Origin: Acidimicrobiales bacterium
GTDB lineage: Bacteria; Actinomycetota; Acidimicrobiia; Acidimicrobiales; JAVJTC01
Direction of reading: 5' to 3'
Length of the DNA stretch: 64,000 nucleotides
NCBI GenBank assembly: GCA_040219085.1
Contig: JAVJTC010000034.1
Location: 62,001 to 126,000, forward strand
Below are positions 51,398-56,822 of this stretch, piece by piece (the first letter of the stretch is position 1; every line of letters begins with the position of its first letter). The translations under genes and the position numbers were made by a program. The notes under the pieces were generated by a model. The model had not been told where the DNA came from, ran no database searches, and worked only from the letters and a program-made list of their open reading frames with translations.

Positions 51398-52615
51398 GTG
51401 GAGAAGACAGGTCCCGACGGGGCGGCGGTGCAGTCGGTCCGCTACGTGTCGTGGGGTGGGCTGCACGGTTATCCGACCGCCGCGGTGGGCTATCTCGGAG
51501 CCATGATGGCGGCGGGAGTGGAGGTCGGCTGGGACCTCGTCGTTCCCGACGGTCGCGGTGGATGGTGCCTGGCCCGCTCGCGCCGTCGAGCGCGCCGGGT
51601 GGCGTGTCTCGACGCGATCGAGGGGATCGACAGGGCTGCGCTCCACAGGGCCATCGGCCGCTCCGTCGCCGCGGACCTCGAGATTCTCCATGTCGTTCCC
51701 GAGCTCTGGCCGAAGCTGCGTGCCGGTGCCGGTCCGGTTGTTGGGAACACGGTCTGGGAGACCGACCGTCTCCCGCGCCATTGGCCGCGGTTGCTGAACG
51801 CGACGGACGGCGTGATCGTTCCGAGCGTTTTCAACCGCGACGTCTTCCGCGACTGCGGTGTGACCGTCCCGCTGAGCGTCGTTCCCCACATCGCGGCGCC
51901 GGCTCCGTCGTCGGCCGGGTCGCGGGAGGCGGTGGCGTTCCGGCGACGTCACAGGATCGCCGAGGGGCACAGGATCGTGTACATGATCGAAGCGTGGACG
52001 GCCCGCAAGGCACCATGGCGTGCGATCAGGGCCTTCGTTCGTGCATTCGACGGCGACGACGGGGTGACGATGGTCGTGAAGGGGCCGGTGAAGGCCCAGA
52101 GTTCGGCGGTCGATCATCGGTCGACGGGTGTCGCCGCGCAGATCGAGGCGATCCGTTCGACGGTGCGGTCACCGCCGCCCGTCGTGCTCGTCACCGGCGA
52201 CGTGACCGACCGCGAGATCCAGATTCTGCACGGAATCGGCGACTGCTACCTGTCCATGAGTCACGGCGAGGGCTGGGGTCTGTCGGTGTTCGAGGCTGCC
52301 GCGAGCGGGAATCCGGTCGTCACCACCGGGTGGGGTGGGACGCTCGAGTACCTCGGGGAGCGGTACCCCTTGCTCGTGGACTTCGACCTGGTGAACGTCG
52401 TCGATGTCGTCGGGGCGTCGTCGTTCTCCCCGGACCAACGCTGGGCCTCGGCCGACATCGACCACGCCGGGGACCTTCTCCGCCGGGTCATCGAAGATCC
52501 GGGCGCGGCGGCGGGGGAGTGCGTCTCGGCGACCGGAGACCTGCGAGGCCGGTTCTCGCAGGAGGCGGTCACGCCGGCGCTCCTGTCGGCACTGGACGTG
52601 GTGGCCCGCCGATGA
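51398..52615 (+). CDS. Glycosyltransferase, GT4-like (GT-B fold)
   Basis: 405 residues from GTG 51398 (GTG 51428 also possible; the frame stays open further upstream as antisense of aapJ). The N-terminal half starts VRYVSWGGLHGYPTAAVGYL and has GNTVWETDRLPRHW and VIVPSVFNRDVF, patterns seen in glycan-synthesis transferases. The C-terminal half carries the E-x7-E donor motif SHGEGWGLSVFEAAASGNPV. No signal peptide. The stop overlaps the next transferase as ATGA. These two plus-strand enzymes point towards the minus-strand GT2/RRE/peptide run, ten bases away, and may belong to the same pathway. Confidence 0.82.
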   Translation: MEKTGPDGAAVQSVRYVSWGGLHGYPTAAVGYLGAMMAAGVEVGWDLVVPDGRGGWCLARSRRRARRVACLDAIEGIDRAALHRAIGRSVAADLEILHVVPELWPKLRAGAGPVVGNTVWETDRLPRHWPRLLNATDGVIVPSVFNRDVFRDCGVTVPLSVVPHIAAPAPSSAGSREAVAFRRRHRIAEGHRIVYMIEAWTARKAPWRAIRAFVRAFDGDDGVTMVVKGPVKAQSSAVDHRSTGVAAQIEAIRSTVRSPPPVVLVTGDVTDREIQILHGIGDCYLSMSHGEGWGLSVFEAAASGNPVVTTGWGGTLEYLGERYPLLVDFDLVNVVDVVGASSFSPDQRWASADIDHAGDLLRRVIEDPGAAAGECVSATGDLRGRFSQEAVTPALLSALDVVARR

Positions 52616-53454
52616 CGGGCCCCCGGACGTTCCACTTCGTGTTCGGACTCAAGGCGCAGAACGCGCCGTTCCACCTCGCCCATTACCTGGCCCTGGCCTC
52701 GTGTATCCGTCACCACGACGGCGCGCGTGTCGTGATGCACCACGGGGAGGTACCCCACGGGCCGTGGTGGGACCGGATCCGACCGCACCTCGAGTTGCGT
52801 CCCGTTGAGCGGGTCGGCTGGCTCGACGACCACCCCGGCTACTTCGCCCACGACGAGGGACGCCTCATCGTGGGCGCCGGCTATGACTACGCGCACCAAG
52901 CCGACGTCATCCGCCTCGAGGTGCTCGCAGCCGAGGGCGGCATCTACGCCGACATCGACACGCTGTTCGTCGACGAGGTCCCCCGGTCCTACGACCATGA
53001 ACGGTTCGTCATCGGCGAGGAGGACGTCGGGGCCCGCCGGCGTCGCCCCCGCCGGTCACTGTGCAACGCGTTCATGGCCGCCACGGCGGGTTCCCGCTTC
53101 GCCCTGCGCTGGCTCGACCGGATCAGAGACGTCTTCGACGGGACGTGGAGCCGTCACTCCTGCACGGAGGCGGCGCTGCTGGCCGCGGAGATGCCCGGAG
53201 AGGTGACCGTGGTGTCGACCCGGCCGCACTGCGCCTTTCCGGCGACCGCCAAAGGGCTCGGCGACCTGTTCGAGCGTCGTGTCGACGTGCGCGACGGCGT
53301 CGTGAGCATCCACTGGTGGGAGCACCTGTGGTGGAGTCCGCTGCGCAGTGACTTCACGTCGTTCCACAACGGGCTGCTCACCGAGGAGTACGTGCTGGGT
53401 GCCGACACGACGTTCGCGCGTCTCGCCCGGCCGACGTTGCTGGACCCACCGTGA
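52612..53454 (+). CDS. Glycosyltransferase with DxD motif (GT32/Gly_transf_sug-like)
   Basis: 280 residues. FHFVFGLKAQNAPFHLAHYL starts the domain, with HQADVIRLEVLAAEGGIYAD and the metal/nucleotide-sugar DxD at Asp114-Asp116 (GGIYADIDTLFV), the hallmark of Gly_transf_sug (OCH1/TcdA-like) enzymes. The C-terminal part includes CNAFMAATAGSRFALRWLDR and SIHWWEHLWWSPL. ATG 52612 overlaps the previous gene's stop. It transfers an unknown sugar; whether onto peptide, glycan or lipid is open. Convergent with a GT2 gene. Confidence 0.83.
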   Translation: MTGPRTFHFVFGLKAQNAPFHLAHYLALASCIRHHDGARVVMHHGEVPHGPWWDRIRPHLELRPVERVGWLDDHPGYFAHDEGRLIVGAGYDYAHQADVIRLEVLAAEGGIYADIDTLFVDEVPRSYDHERFVIGEEDVGARRRRPRRSLCNAFMAATAGSRFALRWLDRIRDVFDGTWSRHSCTEAALLAAEMPGEVTVVSTRPHCAFPATAKGLGDLFERRVDVRDGVVSIHWWEHLWWSPLRSDFTSFHNGLLTEEYVLGADTTFARLARPTLLDPP

Positions 53455-53463
53455 CCGGGCGCG

Positions 53464-54279
53464 TCAGCCGGCCCCGATGGTGAGTTCGATCCTCTCGGCG
53501 CCCACGGCCATGACCACGCGGCGCGCCGCCACCGGGTAGCTGCTCAGCTCCTCGGCGAGCAGGGCGAGTTCGCCGGCGCCGATGCGCGAGCCCCGGTGTT
53601 TCCACGCGGAGATCGCGCGGTGGTGCGTGGCATCCCACGCGTTCGTCCCGTGCTGGACGTACACGTAGAGCCAGCCGTGGTCCTGGAGCCCCCTCACCCG
53701 CTTCCCGTCGCCGACAATGCGGGTCACGACGGGTGTGTCCTCGCCCCGGCGACGTCTCGGGTACCGCGGGAGTGCCCCGCGTCCGGCCAGGAGCGTCCCG
53801 GGGATCAGGGAGTGGGGAAAGCGCTCGACGGTCCAGTCGTCCCAGCACAACTCGCCATCCGCCTCGAAGAGGTGGAGCTGATCGGTCAGAAGGCAGGCGG
53901 CGGCTTCACCACCGGTGTCGCCGCCGGTGACGAGGTGGGCGAGTTGTACCTCGACCCGGCGGGGATGGTGGAGGTCGTCGTCGTCCCACTGGCACACGAC
54001 GTCACCGCCGGCCACCTCGACCGAGACGTTGCGCAGAGACCCGAGCGGGCGTCGACGGCTGCGGTGGACGGACACGGCGGATCCCGGCGCGAGGCTCCCG
54101 GTCATTGACCGCACGTCGGCGTCGAAGTCCCGCCCACCGTCGTGGACGACGACGAGTTCGCACGACGGGTGTGTCTGGGCGGCGAAACACCGCACGGCAT
54201 CTTCGAGTCGGTCCAGGCGACCGGGTCGGGTCACGACGAGACAGCTCACGCCGGTCGGCACCGCCGGGGCGGGGGTCAT
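53464..54279 (-). CDS. GT2-family glycosyltransferase
   Basis: 271 residues. GVSCLVVTRPGRLDRLEDAV, HPSCELVVVHDGGRDFD and VVCQWDDDDLHHPRRVEVQL show the GT-A fold with a DDDD variant of the DxD metal site at about residue 100. The C-terminal half has LVYVQHGTNAWD-like residues (VYVQHGTNAWDATHHRAIS), common in GT2 enzymes of surface-glycan loci. ATG 54279 overlaps the upstream SunS-like gene's stop (ATGA). Last gene of the minus-strand peptide/RRE run. Confidence 0.83.
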   Translation of the reverse strand: MTPAPAVPTGVSCLVVTRPGRLDRLEDAVRCFAAQTHPSCELVVVHDGGRDFDADVRSMTGSLAPGSAVSVHRSRRRPLGSLRNVSVEVAGGDVVCQWDDDDLHHPRRVEVQLAHLVTGGDTGGEAAACLLTDQLHLFEADGELCWDDWTVERFPHSLIPGTLLAGRGALPRYPRRRRGEDTPVVTRIVGDGKRVRGLQDHGWLYVYVQHGTNAWDATHHRAISAWKHRGSRIGAGELALLAEELSSYPVAARRVVMAVGAERIELTIGAG

Positions 54280-55391
54280 CGCGATGCGAGGTGCTCGCTG
54301 AGGACGCGCCGAGTGCGGTACTCGACGTTGTCGGGTTCCGCGGACTCGGCGCGGGCGAAGAAGTCCGCTGCGGCGCGGTGGTCGCCCTGTTCGAAGTGAC
54401 AGGTTGCGATCATTGCGAAGGTGGTCGCGCCGAACAGCGACGACTGGTAGCCGAGGTCCTCGGTGAGGTCGCCGCGCCCGGCCGCCTCCGTGAGGGCCGT
54501 GAAGCCGGCGATCGCCTCGTCGTGGCGGCCCTGGATCATCGCGATCCGCGCTTCGGTCCAGCGCAGGACGGGGTCGCGCGGGAACATCGTGCGCGCCTCG
54601 ATCATGAGCTCCGTGACGTCGTGCGAGTCGGCGACGTCGGCCTGGATCAGCTCGATGAACGCCAGGCTGTCGGCCGGCCGGGTGGGCCCCCGGCGTCGCA
54701 GGACGTCGATCCCGGCGAGCCAGGCGTCCCGGGCCCCCGCCGCGTCCCCGGTTGCCCGCAGCGTCGCCCCGAGGTGGTACCAGCAGTAGACGTGGTCGGG
54801 GTCCTGCGCGAGCGCCCTTCTCAGCAGCGGGAGGTTTCTCGGATGCTTGTGGTCCTGGGGACCGTCGTAGCCGATGTGGTCGATGACCAGTGAACTGGGG
54901 CGCACCCGCATCAGGTCCCGCGCCATCACCTCGTGCACCGCAGGCCAGATGGTCTCGTGGATGATCCCGCGGAACCGCAGGCGGGGGTCGGAGCGGAACA
55001 GGCGCAGCTCCCGGTAGGCGGTGTGGCCAGTGCGGGGATGCAGGTCGACCGTGGCGCCGACGGTACGTCGGCCGCCGATCTCCCGGTGCAGGACGTCCCG
55101 GGGAATCGGGCGGACGCGTTCGTCGGCGTCGATGTAGAGCACCCAGTCGGTGTCGACGAGATCGAGCGCGTGGTTGCGTGCGGCCGCGAAGTCGTCGGGC
55201 CAGTCGATCCGGTCCACCCGGGCGCCGTGGCCGTGGGCGATCTCGATCGAGGCGTCCGTGGAGCCGGTGTCGACCACGACGATGTCGTCGACGACCTCAC
55301 GGAGTGACTCGAGACAGGCGCCGAGATGGCGTTCCTCGTCGCGCACGATGAGAGCGGCTGTCACCGATACCGAGCGGCGACGTCGGATCAT
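54276..55391 (-). CDS. GT2-family glycosyltransferase with TPR-like C-terminus (SunS-like layout)
   Basis: 371 residues. The GT-A domain (1-210) shows VTAALIVRDEERHLGACLES, DIVVVDTGSTDAS, DWPDDFAAARNHALD, LYIDADERV (DxD) and the acceptor-side ELRLFRSDPRLRFRG with IIHET. From about 210 TPR-like helices follow: NLPLLRRALAQDPDHVYCWY then HLGATLRATGDAAGARDAWL. This GT2-plus-TPR layout is the one of the peptide S-glycosyltransferases SunS/ThuS that make glycocins, but it also occurs in enzymes with other acceptors. It sits 37 bases downstream of the small Tat-leader peptide gene and in the same run as a PqqD-like gene, so peptide glycosylation is a reasonable but untested idea. Confidence 0.82.
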   Translation of the reverse strand: MIRRRRSVSVTAALIVRDEERHLGACLESLREVVDDIVVVDTGSTDASIEIAHGHGARVDRIDWPDDFAAARNHALDLVDTDWVLYIDADERVRPIPRDVLHREIGGRRTVGATVDLHPRTGHTAYRELRLFRSDPRLRFRGIIHETIWPAVHEVMARDLMRVRPSSLVIDHIGYDGPQDHKHPRNLPLLRRALAQDPDHVYCWYHLGATLRATGDAAGARDAWLAGIDVLRRRGPTRPADSLAFIELIQADVADSHDVTELMIEARTMFPRDPVLRWTEARIAMIQGRHDEAIAGFTALTEAAGRGDLTEDLGYQSSLFGATTFAMIATCHFEQGDHRAAADFFARAESAEPDNVEYRTRRVLSEHLASR

Positions 55392-55428
55392 GATGTGCCC
55401 GGACCGGTGCCGGGCGGAAGGCCCGGAC

Positions 55429-55704
55429 CTAGCGCCCGAAGAGGCGGAACAGCCAGTTGAAGAGAGCCCTCAGCCAGAAGAACGGCTCGCGCTTCTGGTT
55501 GCCGCCGAAGGTCTGGTTGCCACCCCACGTCTGGTTGCCGCCGAAGAAATCCGAGTTGGCCTCGGCGCCCGCCGGGTTCACGGCGAATGACGCGACGACC
55601 GGTGCGGTGTAGGCAACGGCACCGCCGGCCAGCATGCGCTTGAGCATCTTGCGTCGGCTGATCGGCACAGACCGGAGGAGGTCTTCCTTCTCGGCATCGC
55701 TCAT
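55429..55704 (-). CDS. Small exported peptide with Tat leader and GGNQ repeats (candidate RiPP precursor)
   Basis: 91 residues from ATG 55704, with GGAGG five bases upstream. Residues 1-49 form an acidic start and a twin-arginine leader: SRRKMLKRMLAGGAVAYTAP, then a hydrophobic stretch ending NPAGAEA. The predicted mature part of about 42 residues has three hexapeptides, FGGNQT, WGGNQT and FGGNQK (54-71), and an amphipathic, cationic, aromatic end, FFWLRALFNWLFRLFGR. The first two repeats contain Asn-Gln-Thr, an N-x-T type site. A PqqD-like gene lies 73 bases upstream and a SunS-like transferase 37 bases downstream. It may be a modified (glycosylated) exported peptide with membrane activity; it could also be a structural surface protein. 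Confidence 0.75.
   Translation of the reverse strand: MSDAEKEDLLRSVPISRRKMLKRMLAGGAVAYTAPVVASFAVNPAGAEANSDFFGGNQTWGGNQTFGGNQKREPFFWLRALFNWLFRLFGR
55492..55545 (-). repeat. Three 18-bp coding repeats (GGNQ hexapeptides)
   Basis: CTGGTTGCC (plus strand) recurs at 55495, 55513 and 55531 with an exact 18-base period, encoding FGGNQT, WGGNQT and FGGNQK. Third-base differences between copies (for example gccgcc against gccacc) argue for selection on the peptide. Confidence 0.9.
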
Positions 55705-55777
55705 CAGGGCCTCCAGGTGCGGGGTGGAATCCGGAATGGTACGACAACGGCAGCCCCCGGACAAGGAACCACGGGGA

Positions 55778-56044
55778 TCAGGTCGGTCCGGTGAGGACGC
55801 CGAGGGCCGTGAGGTCGGTGACGACCTTCTCGACGTCAGCGACGGGTGCCTCCTCCAGTCCGAAGGCGTCGCCCACCAGGGCCGCGATCTCGGTCAGGGT
55901 CCGTTGCCCGTCACAGAGCGAGAACACGATGGCCGCCGTCTCGTTGAGGTAGTGGACCTGTGCCCCGGCGGCGTCGTGGATCACAAAGCCCTCGTCTGAC
56001 GCGATCACCTCGTGGGCCGGGTTGGCGAGCGGCTTGGCATTCAC
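55778..56044 (-). CDS. PqqD-family peptide-binding protein (RiPP recognition element)
   Basis: 88 residues. The sequence ASDEGFVIHDAAGAQVHYLN followed by ETAAIVFSLCDGQRTLTEIA and a final VVTDLTALGVL matches the PqqD fold: three strands, then helices, with the signature 'LN..a..I..l.dG..t..eI'. PqqD-type domains bind the leader of ribosomal peptides and present them to modifying enzymes. Here it stands alone, upstream of the small Tat-leader peptide and two GT2 genes, and 40 bases downstream of a membrane protein gene. No radical-SAM, lasso (B1/B2 protease) or lanthipeptide enzyme is near. HPr-kinase-linked PqqD proteins look similar but their partners are absent. Confidence 0.85.
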   Translation of the reverse strand: MNAKPLANPAHEVIASDEGFVIHDAAGAQVHYLNETAAIVFSLCDGQRTLTEIAALVGDAFGLEEAPVADVEKVVTDLTALGVLTGPT

Positions 56045-56084
56045 GAGGCGTCATCCTGCCATGCCCGCCGGGCACCGTCAGATG

Positions 56085-56822
56085 TCAGGCCACGCGGGCG
56101 TTGCCCGATGCCGTCACGACGAAGCGGGAGCGACCACCGCTCACCGACACGGGCACCAGCTGCTCGAGGGACGTCGTCCGGTAGGACAGCACGAACGTCG
56201 CGGCGATCGCTGCGACGGTGAGGGCCCACAGCCCCAGAGTCTTCGTCAGCACGAACGCCGACAACGGCAGCGTGAGCAACAAGACGAGGGTGAGCGCTCC
56301 CTTGGCGACGATGACCGCCGCCCACAGGTAGGTGAGGTTGCGGAACAGGCGGGCGACGCCGTGACGTCCCGCGGCATCGGCGTCCAGGGGGCAGAACTCA
56401 TCGGCCAGTCGTGCGATCAGAGGTCGCCCCACGGCGATCGACACGAGGAAGACCGCCGCGAGCGCCGCCGAGCCGAGCACCGGCTGTGCGAAGTACAGGA
56501 ACGTGCTGTCGGTGGCCAGAGCCAGGGCGGTGCGACCCATCAGGCCGATTCCGACGATCAGGTGCAGGCCTGTCACCGGTCGGTGCGTGAGTCGGCGCAG
56601 CGCGATGGCCGAGAAGGTCCAGGCGAGAGCGGCGGCGTAGGCGGCGCCGACCCCGACGGCCTCGAGCACGCTGTAGAACAGCACAGCCGGCACGACCATG
56701 GCCTCGATGAGGCGAGGACCTCCTCTGCGGGCGACCGCCCGCACCACTGCGGCGGGCGAGAGGGCGGATCCGTAGGCGGGCACGGCGTCTGCGGGTGCCG
56801 GTGTGGGTAGCTCGGAGAACAT
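56085..56822 (-). CDS. Multi-span membrane protein, VC0807/DUF3159-like
   Basis: 245 residues from ATG 56822. Four to six hydrophobic segments: LIEAMVVPAVLFYSVLEAVG, AAYAAALAWTFSAIALRRL, PVTGLHLIVGIGLMGRTALA, AVFLVSIAVGRPLIARLADE, then two in the last 90 residues. The RPLIARLADEFCPLD segment and the overall layout resemble VC0807-family/intracellular-septation-like proteins, which have no agreed function. It is the first gene of the run containing the RRE gene (40-base gap), so it could serve the peptide system as exporter, immunity or anchoring protein, but it may be unrelated. The C-terminal 25 residues are polar (TSLEQLVPVSVSGG). Confidence 0.65.
   Translation of the reverse strand: MFSELPTPAPADAVPAYGSALSPAAVVRAVARRGGPRLIEAMVVPAVLFYSVLEAVGVGAAYAAALAWTFSAIALRRLTHRPVTGLHLIVGIGLMGRTALALATDSTFLYFAQPVLGSAALAAVFLVSIAVGRPLIARLADEFCPLDADAAGRHGVARLFRNLTYLWAAVIVAKGALTLVLLLTLPLSAFVLTKTLGLWALTVAAIAATFVLSYRTTSLEQLVPVSVSGGRSRFVVTASGNARVA

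Follow-up and report, generated by a model that had tools for sequence, protein, structure and literature searches.

A patchily conserved gene unit of a PqqD-type RRE, a Tat-leader peptide with Asn repeats and a GT2-TPR glycosyltransferase in Acidimicrobiales as the probable source of a sugar-coated peptide

The analyzed stretch of 64,000 nucleotides, here called the window, carries five closely spaced genes on its minus strand. These encode a VC0807/IspA-like membrane protein (56085-56822; 91.6 bits against a cut-off of 65), a stand-alone PqqD-type RRE of 88 residues with a GTG start (55778-56044), a precursor peptide of 91 residues with an ATG start and GGAGG as ribosome binding site upstream (55429-55704), a 371-residue glycosyltransferase proposed to act on the peptide (GT2-TPR; 54276-55391; Pfam Glycos_transf_2 and TPR), and a second GT2 enzyme of 271 residues (53464-54279; Pfam Glycos_transf_2), which we regard as a locus-specific accessory. 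The genes are separated by 40 bases (membrane protein and PqqD), 73 bases (PqqD and peptide) and 37 bases (peptide and GT2-TPR), and the two GT2 genes share a 4-base ATGA overlap. Re-reading of the open reading frames reproduced this layout exactly as it had been described in an earlier, sequence-only reading. Directly convergent with the five genes is a pair on the plus strand (51398-53454), which encodes a GT4-like glycosyltransferase (51398-52615) and a GT32-like enzyme of the Gly_transf_sug type (52612-53454) proposed to function in chain extension. The view of the five minus-strand genes as one unit holds for PqqD, peptide and GT2-TPR, which recur in other genomes, but not for the two outer genes, which are not conserved partners. 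No homologue of the membrane protein was flagged at other loci, and it was rejected as a part of the system; for the second GT2, no clear homologue was flagged among the other loci read.

The assignment of a stand-alone PqqD-type domain was borne out by a match to PF05402 of 37.3 bits (cut-off 23.4) and by an AF2 model (pLDDT 87.6) whose best structural matches are leader-bound TfuB1, the RRE of PbtF, TbiB1 and PqqD. The protein stays below all NCBIfam cut-offs for the HPr-rel-A, lasso and PQQ PqqD families, and the PqqD of genome G694 passes TIGR04353 (38.7 against 35). The window genome encodes 13 PqqD domains that score over the cut-off. At related loci the domain is found fused to GT4 enzymes (L095 and, by an in-house PqqD profile, L089) and to FkbM methyltransferases (L093, L133 and L095, the last with a borderline PqqD score). 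Such fusions are expected if PqqD delivers the peptide to modifying enzymes. The unit thereby shares with RRE-dependent RiPP systems the encoding of an RRE with the PqqD fold together with a precursor.

The peptide of the window (MSDAEKEDLLRSVPISRRKMLKRMLAGGAVAYTAPVVASFAVNPAGAEANSDFFGGNQTWGGNQTFGGNQKREPFFWLRALFNWLFRLFGR) shows the twin-arginine leader, of the Tat-type sequence SRRKMLK, and the three GGNQ repeats that the sequence-only reading had reported. The leader region (55564-55704, minus strand) comprises an LxxVxxxRR element, with L10 and V13 preceding R17R18, and a Tat-type signal that runs to an AGA/AEA site. The RR pair is invariant in all 12 family peptides, most of which have the canonical RRxFLK. 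These 12 peptides share the features of Tat substrates, namely an RRxFLK-type motif, a hydrophobic stretch and an AxA site, and TatC is encoded in the window genome; the window peptide on its own scores below the cut-off of the NCBI Tat model TIGR01409. They also have the architecture of RiPP precursors, with a conserved RR-type leader followed by variable repeat tails. A hydrophobic pair at positions -7 and -4 before RR is present in eight of the 12 peptides, where 0.5 would be expected (p = 0.0005, max-corrected over positions), and absent from the other four. This makes LxxVxxxRR a candidate for a putative contact with the RRE, in which case the recognition element and the Tat signal would share one leader. 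Short Tat-type open reading frames of this pattern are rare: 715 kb contain 13, of which eight or nine belong to loci of the family.

Searches of 397 genomes of the window's order with GT4, PqqD and GT2-TPR profiles located the unit in eight further genomes (G002, G004, G044, G101, G133, G274, G306 and G332); G694 is the sole member outside the order and belongs to the same phylum. Together with the window this gives ten genera in nine families. The recurring set consists of PqqD, GT4, usually GT32, and GT2-TPR with a Tat-leader peptide as its immediate neighbor. The unit is thus real and conserved, with a patchy distribution, and its recurrence in nine other genomes rules out a chance origin of the repeats and of the arrangement. 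The PqqD subfamily is present in ten of the 397 genomes and the GT2-TPR class in nine, all of which are among these ten (hypergeometric p = 1.6e-17, or about 4e-7 without the genomes used for building the profiles). The peptide gene adjoins GT2-TPR in all ten lineages, although in G101 it is split by contig ends. Homologous loci without the peptide or PqqD had been named beforehand as grounds for rejecting the system; every high-scoring GT2-TPR homologue was instead found beside a Tat peptide and in a genome with PqqD, close to the GT2-TPR gene in each case except G004, where PqqD, GT32 and GT4 are on a different contig from peptide and GT2-TPR. PqqD, GT2-TPR, GT4 and GT32 have correlated distance matrices (Mantel r 0.40-0.91; PqqD and GT2-TPR, r 0.67, p = 0.0002). 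No further member was found in 129 genomes of G694's order, a plasmid search returned generic GT2 matches only, and a phylum search with the GT2-TPR profile gave no further member of the class, the relatives reaching at most 247 bits and being mostly located in larger reading frames. The family-level search covered one genome only. A direct search for the peptide over the order retrieved mostly generic Tat leaders, and the PqqD and GT2-TPR profiles performed better.

The GT2-TPR enzyme was earlier described as SunS/ThuS-like, and both sequence and fold confirm that its nearest relatives, GmaR and SunS/ThuS, are direct protein or peptide glycosyltransferases. The closest solved sequence to the profile is GmaR (E 3.5e-40), with SunS at about 1e-27. 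The AF2 model (pLDDT 92.4) has its best Foldseek matches with SunS/ThuS (1e-16 to 1e-17), while the next protein follows at ~1e-7. Against the SunS model TIGR04195 the window enzyme scores 63 bits, for a cut-off of 350. The class is well delimited in the 397 genomes of the order, where homologue scores drop from 347 bits to 167 bits for the next match.

The core of the window peptide (GGNQTWGGNQTFGGNQ) is built of the units GGNQTW-GGNQTF-GGNQKR (55489-55542, minus strand; NQ enriched, p = 0.0008), with N57, N63 and N69 as putative acceptors. It is followed by a cationic aromatic C-terminal segment (PFFWLRALFNWLFRLFGR; 55432-55485, minus strand) that only a paralogue in the same genome has in common. 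The cores of the relatives differ in sequence and length. There are six xNQ units in G332, seven units, FPNQT and YPNQY among them, in G306, and ten PNQYx units in G274; in these three, Gln directly follows every core Asn. G694 has YPNQTFSNQT, with only two NQ sites in a 106-residue tail, and the core of G044 (SPNQPNGSPSQSNG) is only 20 residues long. In the other genomes we found a repeated SNG (G002), GGSNTTD (G101), a repeated GGGGNT (G133) and three GGGNL units (G004). Motifs of the form [G/P/S/A]-Asn occur at all ten GT2-TPR loci and are repeated in nearly all, and 57 of the 62 core Asn are preceded by G, P, S or A, as compared to 33% in background proteins. GGNQ is therefore a special case of a more general [G/P/S/A]-N-x repeat, and this makes Asn a likelier acceptor than Cys or Ser; Cys is absent from the core in nine of ten peptides, including that of the window. 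Resemblance among the motifs follows that among the GT2-TPR enzymes: those of G274, G306, G332 and G694 (53-66% identical) all accompany NQ[T/Y], and those of G101 and G133 (48% identical) both accompany N-T. Asn repeats are absent from the peptides of L054 and L132, related loci that have no GT2-TPR, which is suggestive of a tie between repeats and enzyme in a contrast that includes only two negatives.

Asparagine is the best candidate for a putative sugar acceptor, because one core (G004) contains no Ser, Thr, Tyr or Cys. In an alternative version of the same scheme, GT2-TPR would glycosylate Ser, Thr or Tyr in the repeats, and the role of the conserved Asn would be confined to shaping the site. 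Among solved proteins the nearest relatives of the enzyme, GmaR and SunS/ThuS, are known to form O- and S-links, most units have T, S or Y near the Asn (GGNQT, PNQY, SNG, GGNT), and some cores are also rich in Ser, Thr or Tyr, which makes O-linkage possible. However, in addition to the core of G004, several units (GGNQK, GNQV, GGGNL) lack a hydroxyl residue, and no residue other than Asn is shared by all repeat units. In view of this we consider O-linkage unlikely.

The other glycosyltransferases suggest that a glycan may be elaborated beyond the first sugar. A GT4 homologue is present in every lineage. The window, G044, G004, G332, G306 and G694 have a GT32, which in the five relatives lies next to PqqD and either adjoins GT4 or, in G332, G306 and G694, is fused to it. 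An additional GT4-type enzyme is frequent, and relatives also encode other glycosyltransferases, FkbM methyltransferases and sulfotransferases. In the window genome itself, locus L054 on contig 6 encodes a PqqD and a GT4 that match those of the window at 37% and 35%, respectively, and a full-length peptide homologue. The place of GT2-TPR is taken there by a GT61-sulfotransferase fusion together with another protein, probably sulfotransferase-like, and the peptide core of this locus contains no asparagine. The sequence-only reading had omitted both this locus and the GT4/GT32 pair of the window. In Acidobacteria, Pseudacidovorax and Anaerolineae, GT4-GT32 pairs exist at loci that lack PqqD, so sugar-chain building by these enzymes is likely shared with surface glycans.

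This raises the question whether the glycosyltransferases make an exopolysaccharide or a flagellar glycan, with PqqD and the Tat peptide forming a separate neighboring module for some other modification or a structural peptide. A scan of contigs with the GT4 pair gave only GT4 or GT4/GT32 glycan loci from which PqqD was absent, and relatives of GT2-TPR and GT4 also occur beside flagellin genes. Furthermore, genome G029 has PqqD and a Tat protein without any glycosyltransferase, so that the pairing of RRE and Tat is not always tied to glycosylation. Against two independent modules stand the near-perfect co-occurrence, the position of the peptide gene beside GT2-TPR in all ten lineages, the correlated distances and the PqqD-GT4 fusions, and flippase or polymerase genes were not noticed at the window locus. 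A surface-glycan locus with an unrelated neighbor is accordingly improbable.

We consider it probable, at roughly two chances in three, that these genes represent a family of RRE-guided, Tat-exported glycosylated peptides, whatever the linkage and the length of the glycan. A peptide with Asn repeats, a peptide-binding carrier and a dedicated sugar-attaching enzyme would probably yield a sugar-coated peptide of a kind not described before. From the gene set, its homologies, co-occurrence and co-inheritance and the repeat motif, all obtained by computation, we infer leader binding, glycosylation at Asn and Tat export, in this order. The stand-alone RRE would bind the N-terminal part of the leader, perhaps at LxxVxxxRR, and recruit GT2-TPR. 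This enzyme would then, in the cytoplasm, transfer a sugar from its nucleotide-activated donor onto the repeated [G/P/S/A]-Asn sites in the core. GT4 and GT32, and in relatives the further glycosyltransferases, FkbM methyltransferases and sulfotransferases, could build and decorate the glycan, after which the glycopeptide would leave by Tat and be cut by signal peptidase to give a secreted or surface glycopeptide. In a variant of this scheme, the product is a membrane-associated carrier or primer for a long polysaccharide and not a natural product. The variable tails, a 262-residue member with a Thr-rich stalk (L095), the cationic C-terminal segment of the window peptide and the several chain-type glycosyltransferases would fit such a surface protein, but tails as short as 20-34 residues do not, and we find it rather unlikely. 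The narrower proposal, a new RiPP class defined by Tat export in which a TPR enzyme of GT2 fold is directed by a stand-alone RRE to glycosylate Asn in sequon-free [G/P/S/A]-N-x repeats, is more tentative than the family itself and falls somewhat short of even odds. If true, it would be a RiPP family without any classical RiPP enzyme that joins RRE guidance, protein glycosylation and Tat export in one system. A literature search in which few subscription journals were covered returned no description of an RRE combined with a Tat-exported Asn-repeat peptide and GT2-TPR.

Several known systems share parts of this scheme. With glycocins, such as sublancin (SunA/SunS), thurandacin (ThuS) and thermoglycocin, it has in common a small peptide and its putative cytoplasmic modification by a GT2 enzyme. 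Glycocin cores contain Cys and form nested disulfides, and the systems have O- or S-links and ABC transporters with a C39 peptidase (PMC12457901), whereas here we find a Tat leader, a stand-alone RRE and repeat cores mostly without Cys. Neither a C39-peptidase ABC transporter nor a thiol-disulfide isomerase was found among the neighboring genes read at the loci. Membership of the glycocins was rejected on the core, since two nested disulfides need Cys, and on the lack of such a transporter among the neighbors read. GmaR, the flagellin glycosyltransferase of Listeria, is likewise a GT2 and TPR protein; it acts on flagellin and, unlike the window system, is not known to have an RRE or small peptide partner. 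It is also an antirepressor of flagellar genes (PMC9638930).

The linear polyphosphorylated peptides of Bacillota resemble the present family in their discrete RRE, conserved N-terminus with highly variable C-terminus and signal-peptidase-type processing, and their HprK-like kinase (PMC13381572) has counterparts in HprK-like genes at L089 and L090. Those peptides carry the leader motif YxxP, and their systems include an archaeal-type signal peptidase of their own and an exporter resembling MsbA (PMC13381572), in contrast to the LxxVxxxRR Tat leader and peptide-type glycosyltransferase found here; YxxP is absent from the leaders of the 12 family peptides. Fusions of RRE and glycosyltransferase, as in the PqqD-GT4 fusions of the relatives, are listed by RRE-Finder (PMC7470986) and in PMC12710340 as an unknown candidate RiPP context, and the passages on them mention neither a precursor family nor repeats nor Tat export. 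The peptides considered here would, if the proposal is true, supply a concrete precursor family for such fusions of earlier surveys.

If the Asn reading is right, cytoplasmic attachment of sugar to Asn would be shared with HMW1C/ApNGT. This cytoplasmic Asn glycosyltransferase belongs to GT41 and prefers N-x-S/T sequons, while the enzyme of the window has a GT2 fold and its candidate sites have no fixed S/T. An Asn transferase of GT2 fold that acts on simple repeats and needs no N-x-S/T sequon would be a useful tool for glycoengineering.

The window peptide and the peptide of a second PqqD/Tat-peptide/GT4 locus, on contig 6 of the same genome, have a cationic aromatic C-terminal segment in common, FFWLRALFNWLFRLFGR in the former (55432-55485) and LFYLRRLLHILRRIFGGFGR at the C-terminus of the latter (L054:12080-12358). 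The segment is absent from the peptides of other lineages, and its sequence looks like that of a membrane-active helix.

Three PqqD proteins of the window's genome (L055:9537-9959, L056:9684-10085 and L058:9746-10183) end in tails with the motif YxxPxL...F.DM.[DE][LV][LI].LDP, which is similar to lasso-type leader motifs. GT2 and/or GT4 genes adjoin the genes of these proteins, which are possibly RRE-precursor fusions. At L053 (6808-8239 and 8248-9756) one protein joins radical SAM and PqqD domains, and three short paralogous peptides (40-47 residues) with Y.PP..(c/i)D motifs are encoded close by; this locus is probably a radical SAM RiPP cluster. Two lasso-type clusters of the same genome (L051:9560-9993 and L052:9804-11250) contain 44-residue candidate precursors and PqqD proteins.

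An HprK-like kinase (L050:9380-11667) carries a C-terminal PqqD domain. The gene of a second PqqD protein lies on one side of the kinase gene, and that of a 171-residue protein with a Tat leader on the other. Elsewhere, a PqqD gene and the gene of a 220-residue Tat protein are arranged divergently (L132:8985-9972). Because no glycosyltransferase gene is found near this pair, the RRE/Tat-leader pairing may also serve other modifications.

Relatives of GT4 and GT2-TPR, several of them part of very large multidomain proteins, are encoded close to flagellar or flagellin genes at six loci (L096, L097, L098, L103, L104 and L105), where their role is likely flagellin glycosylation.
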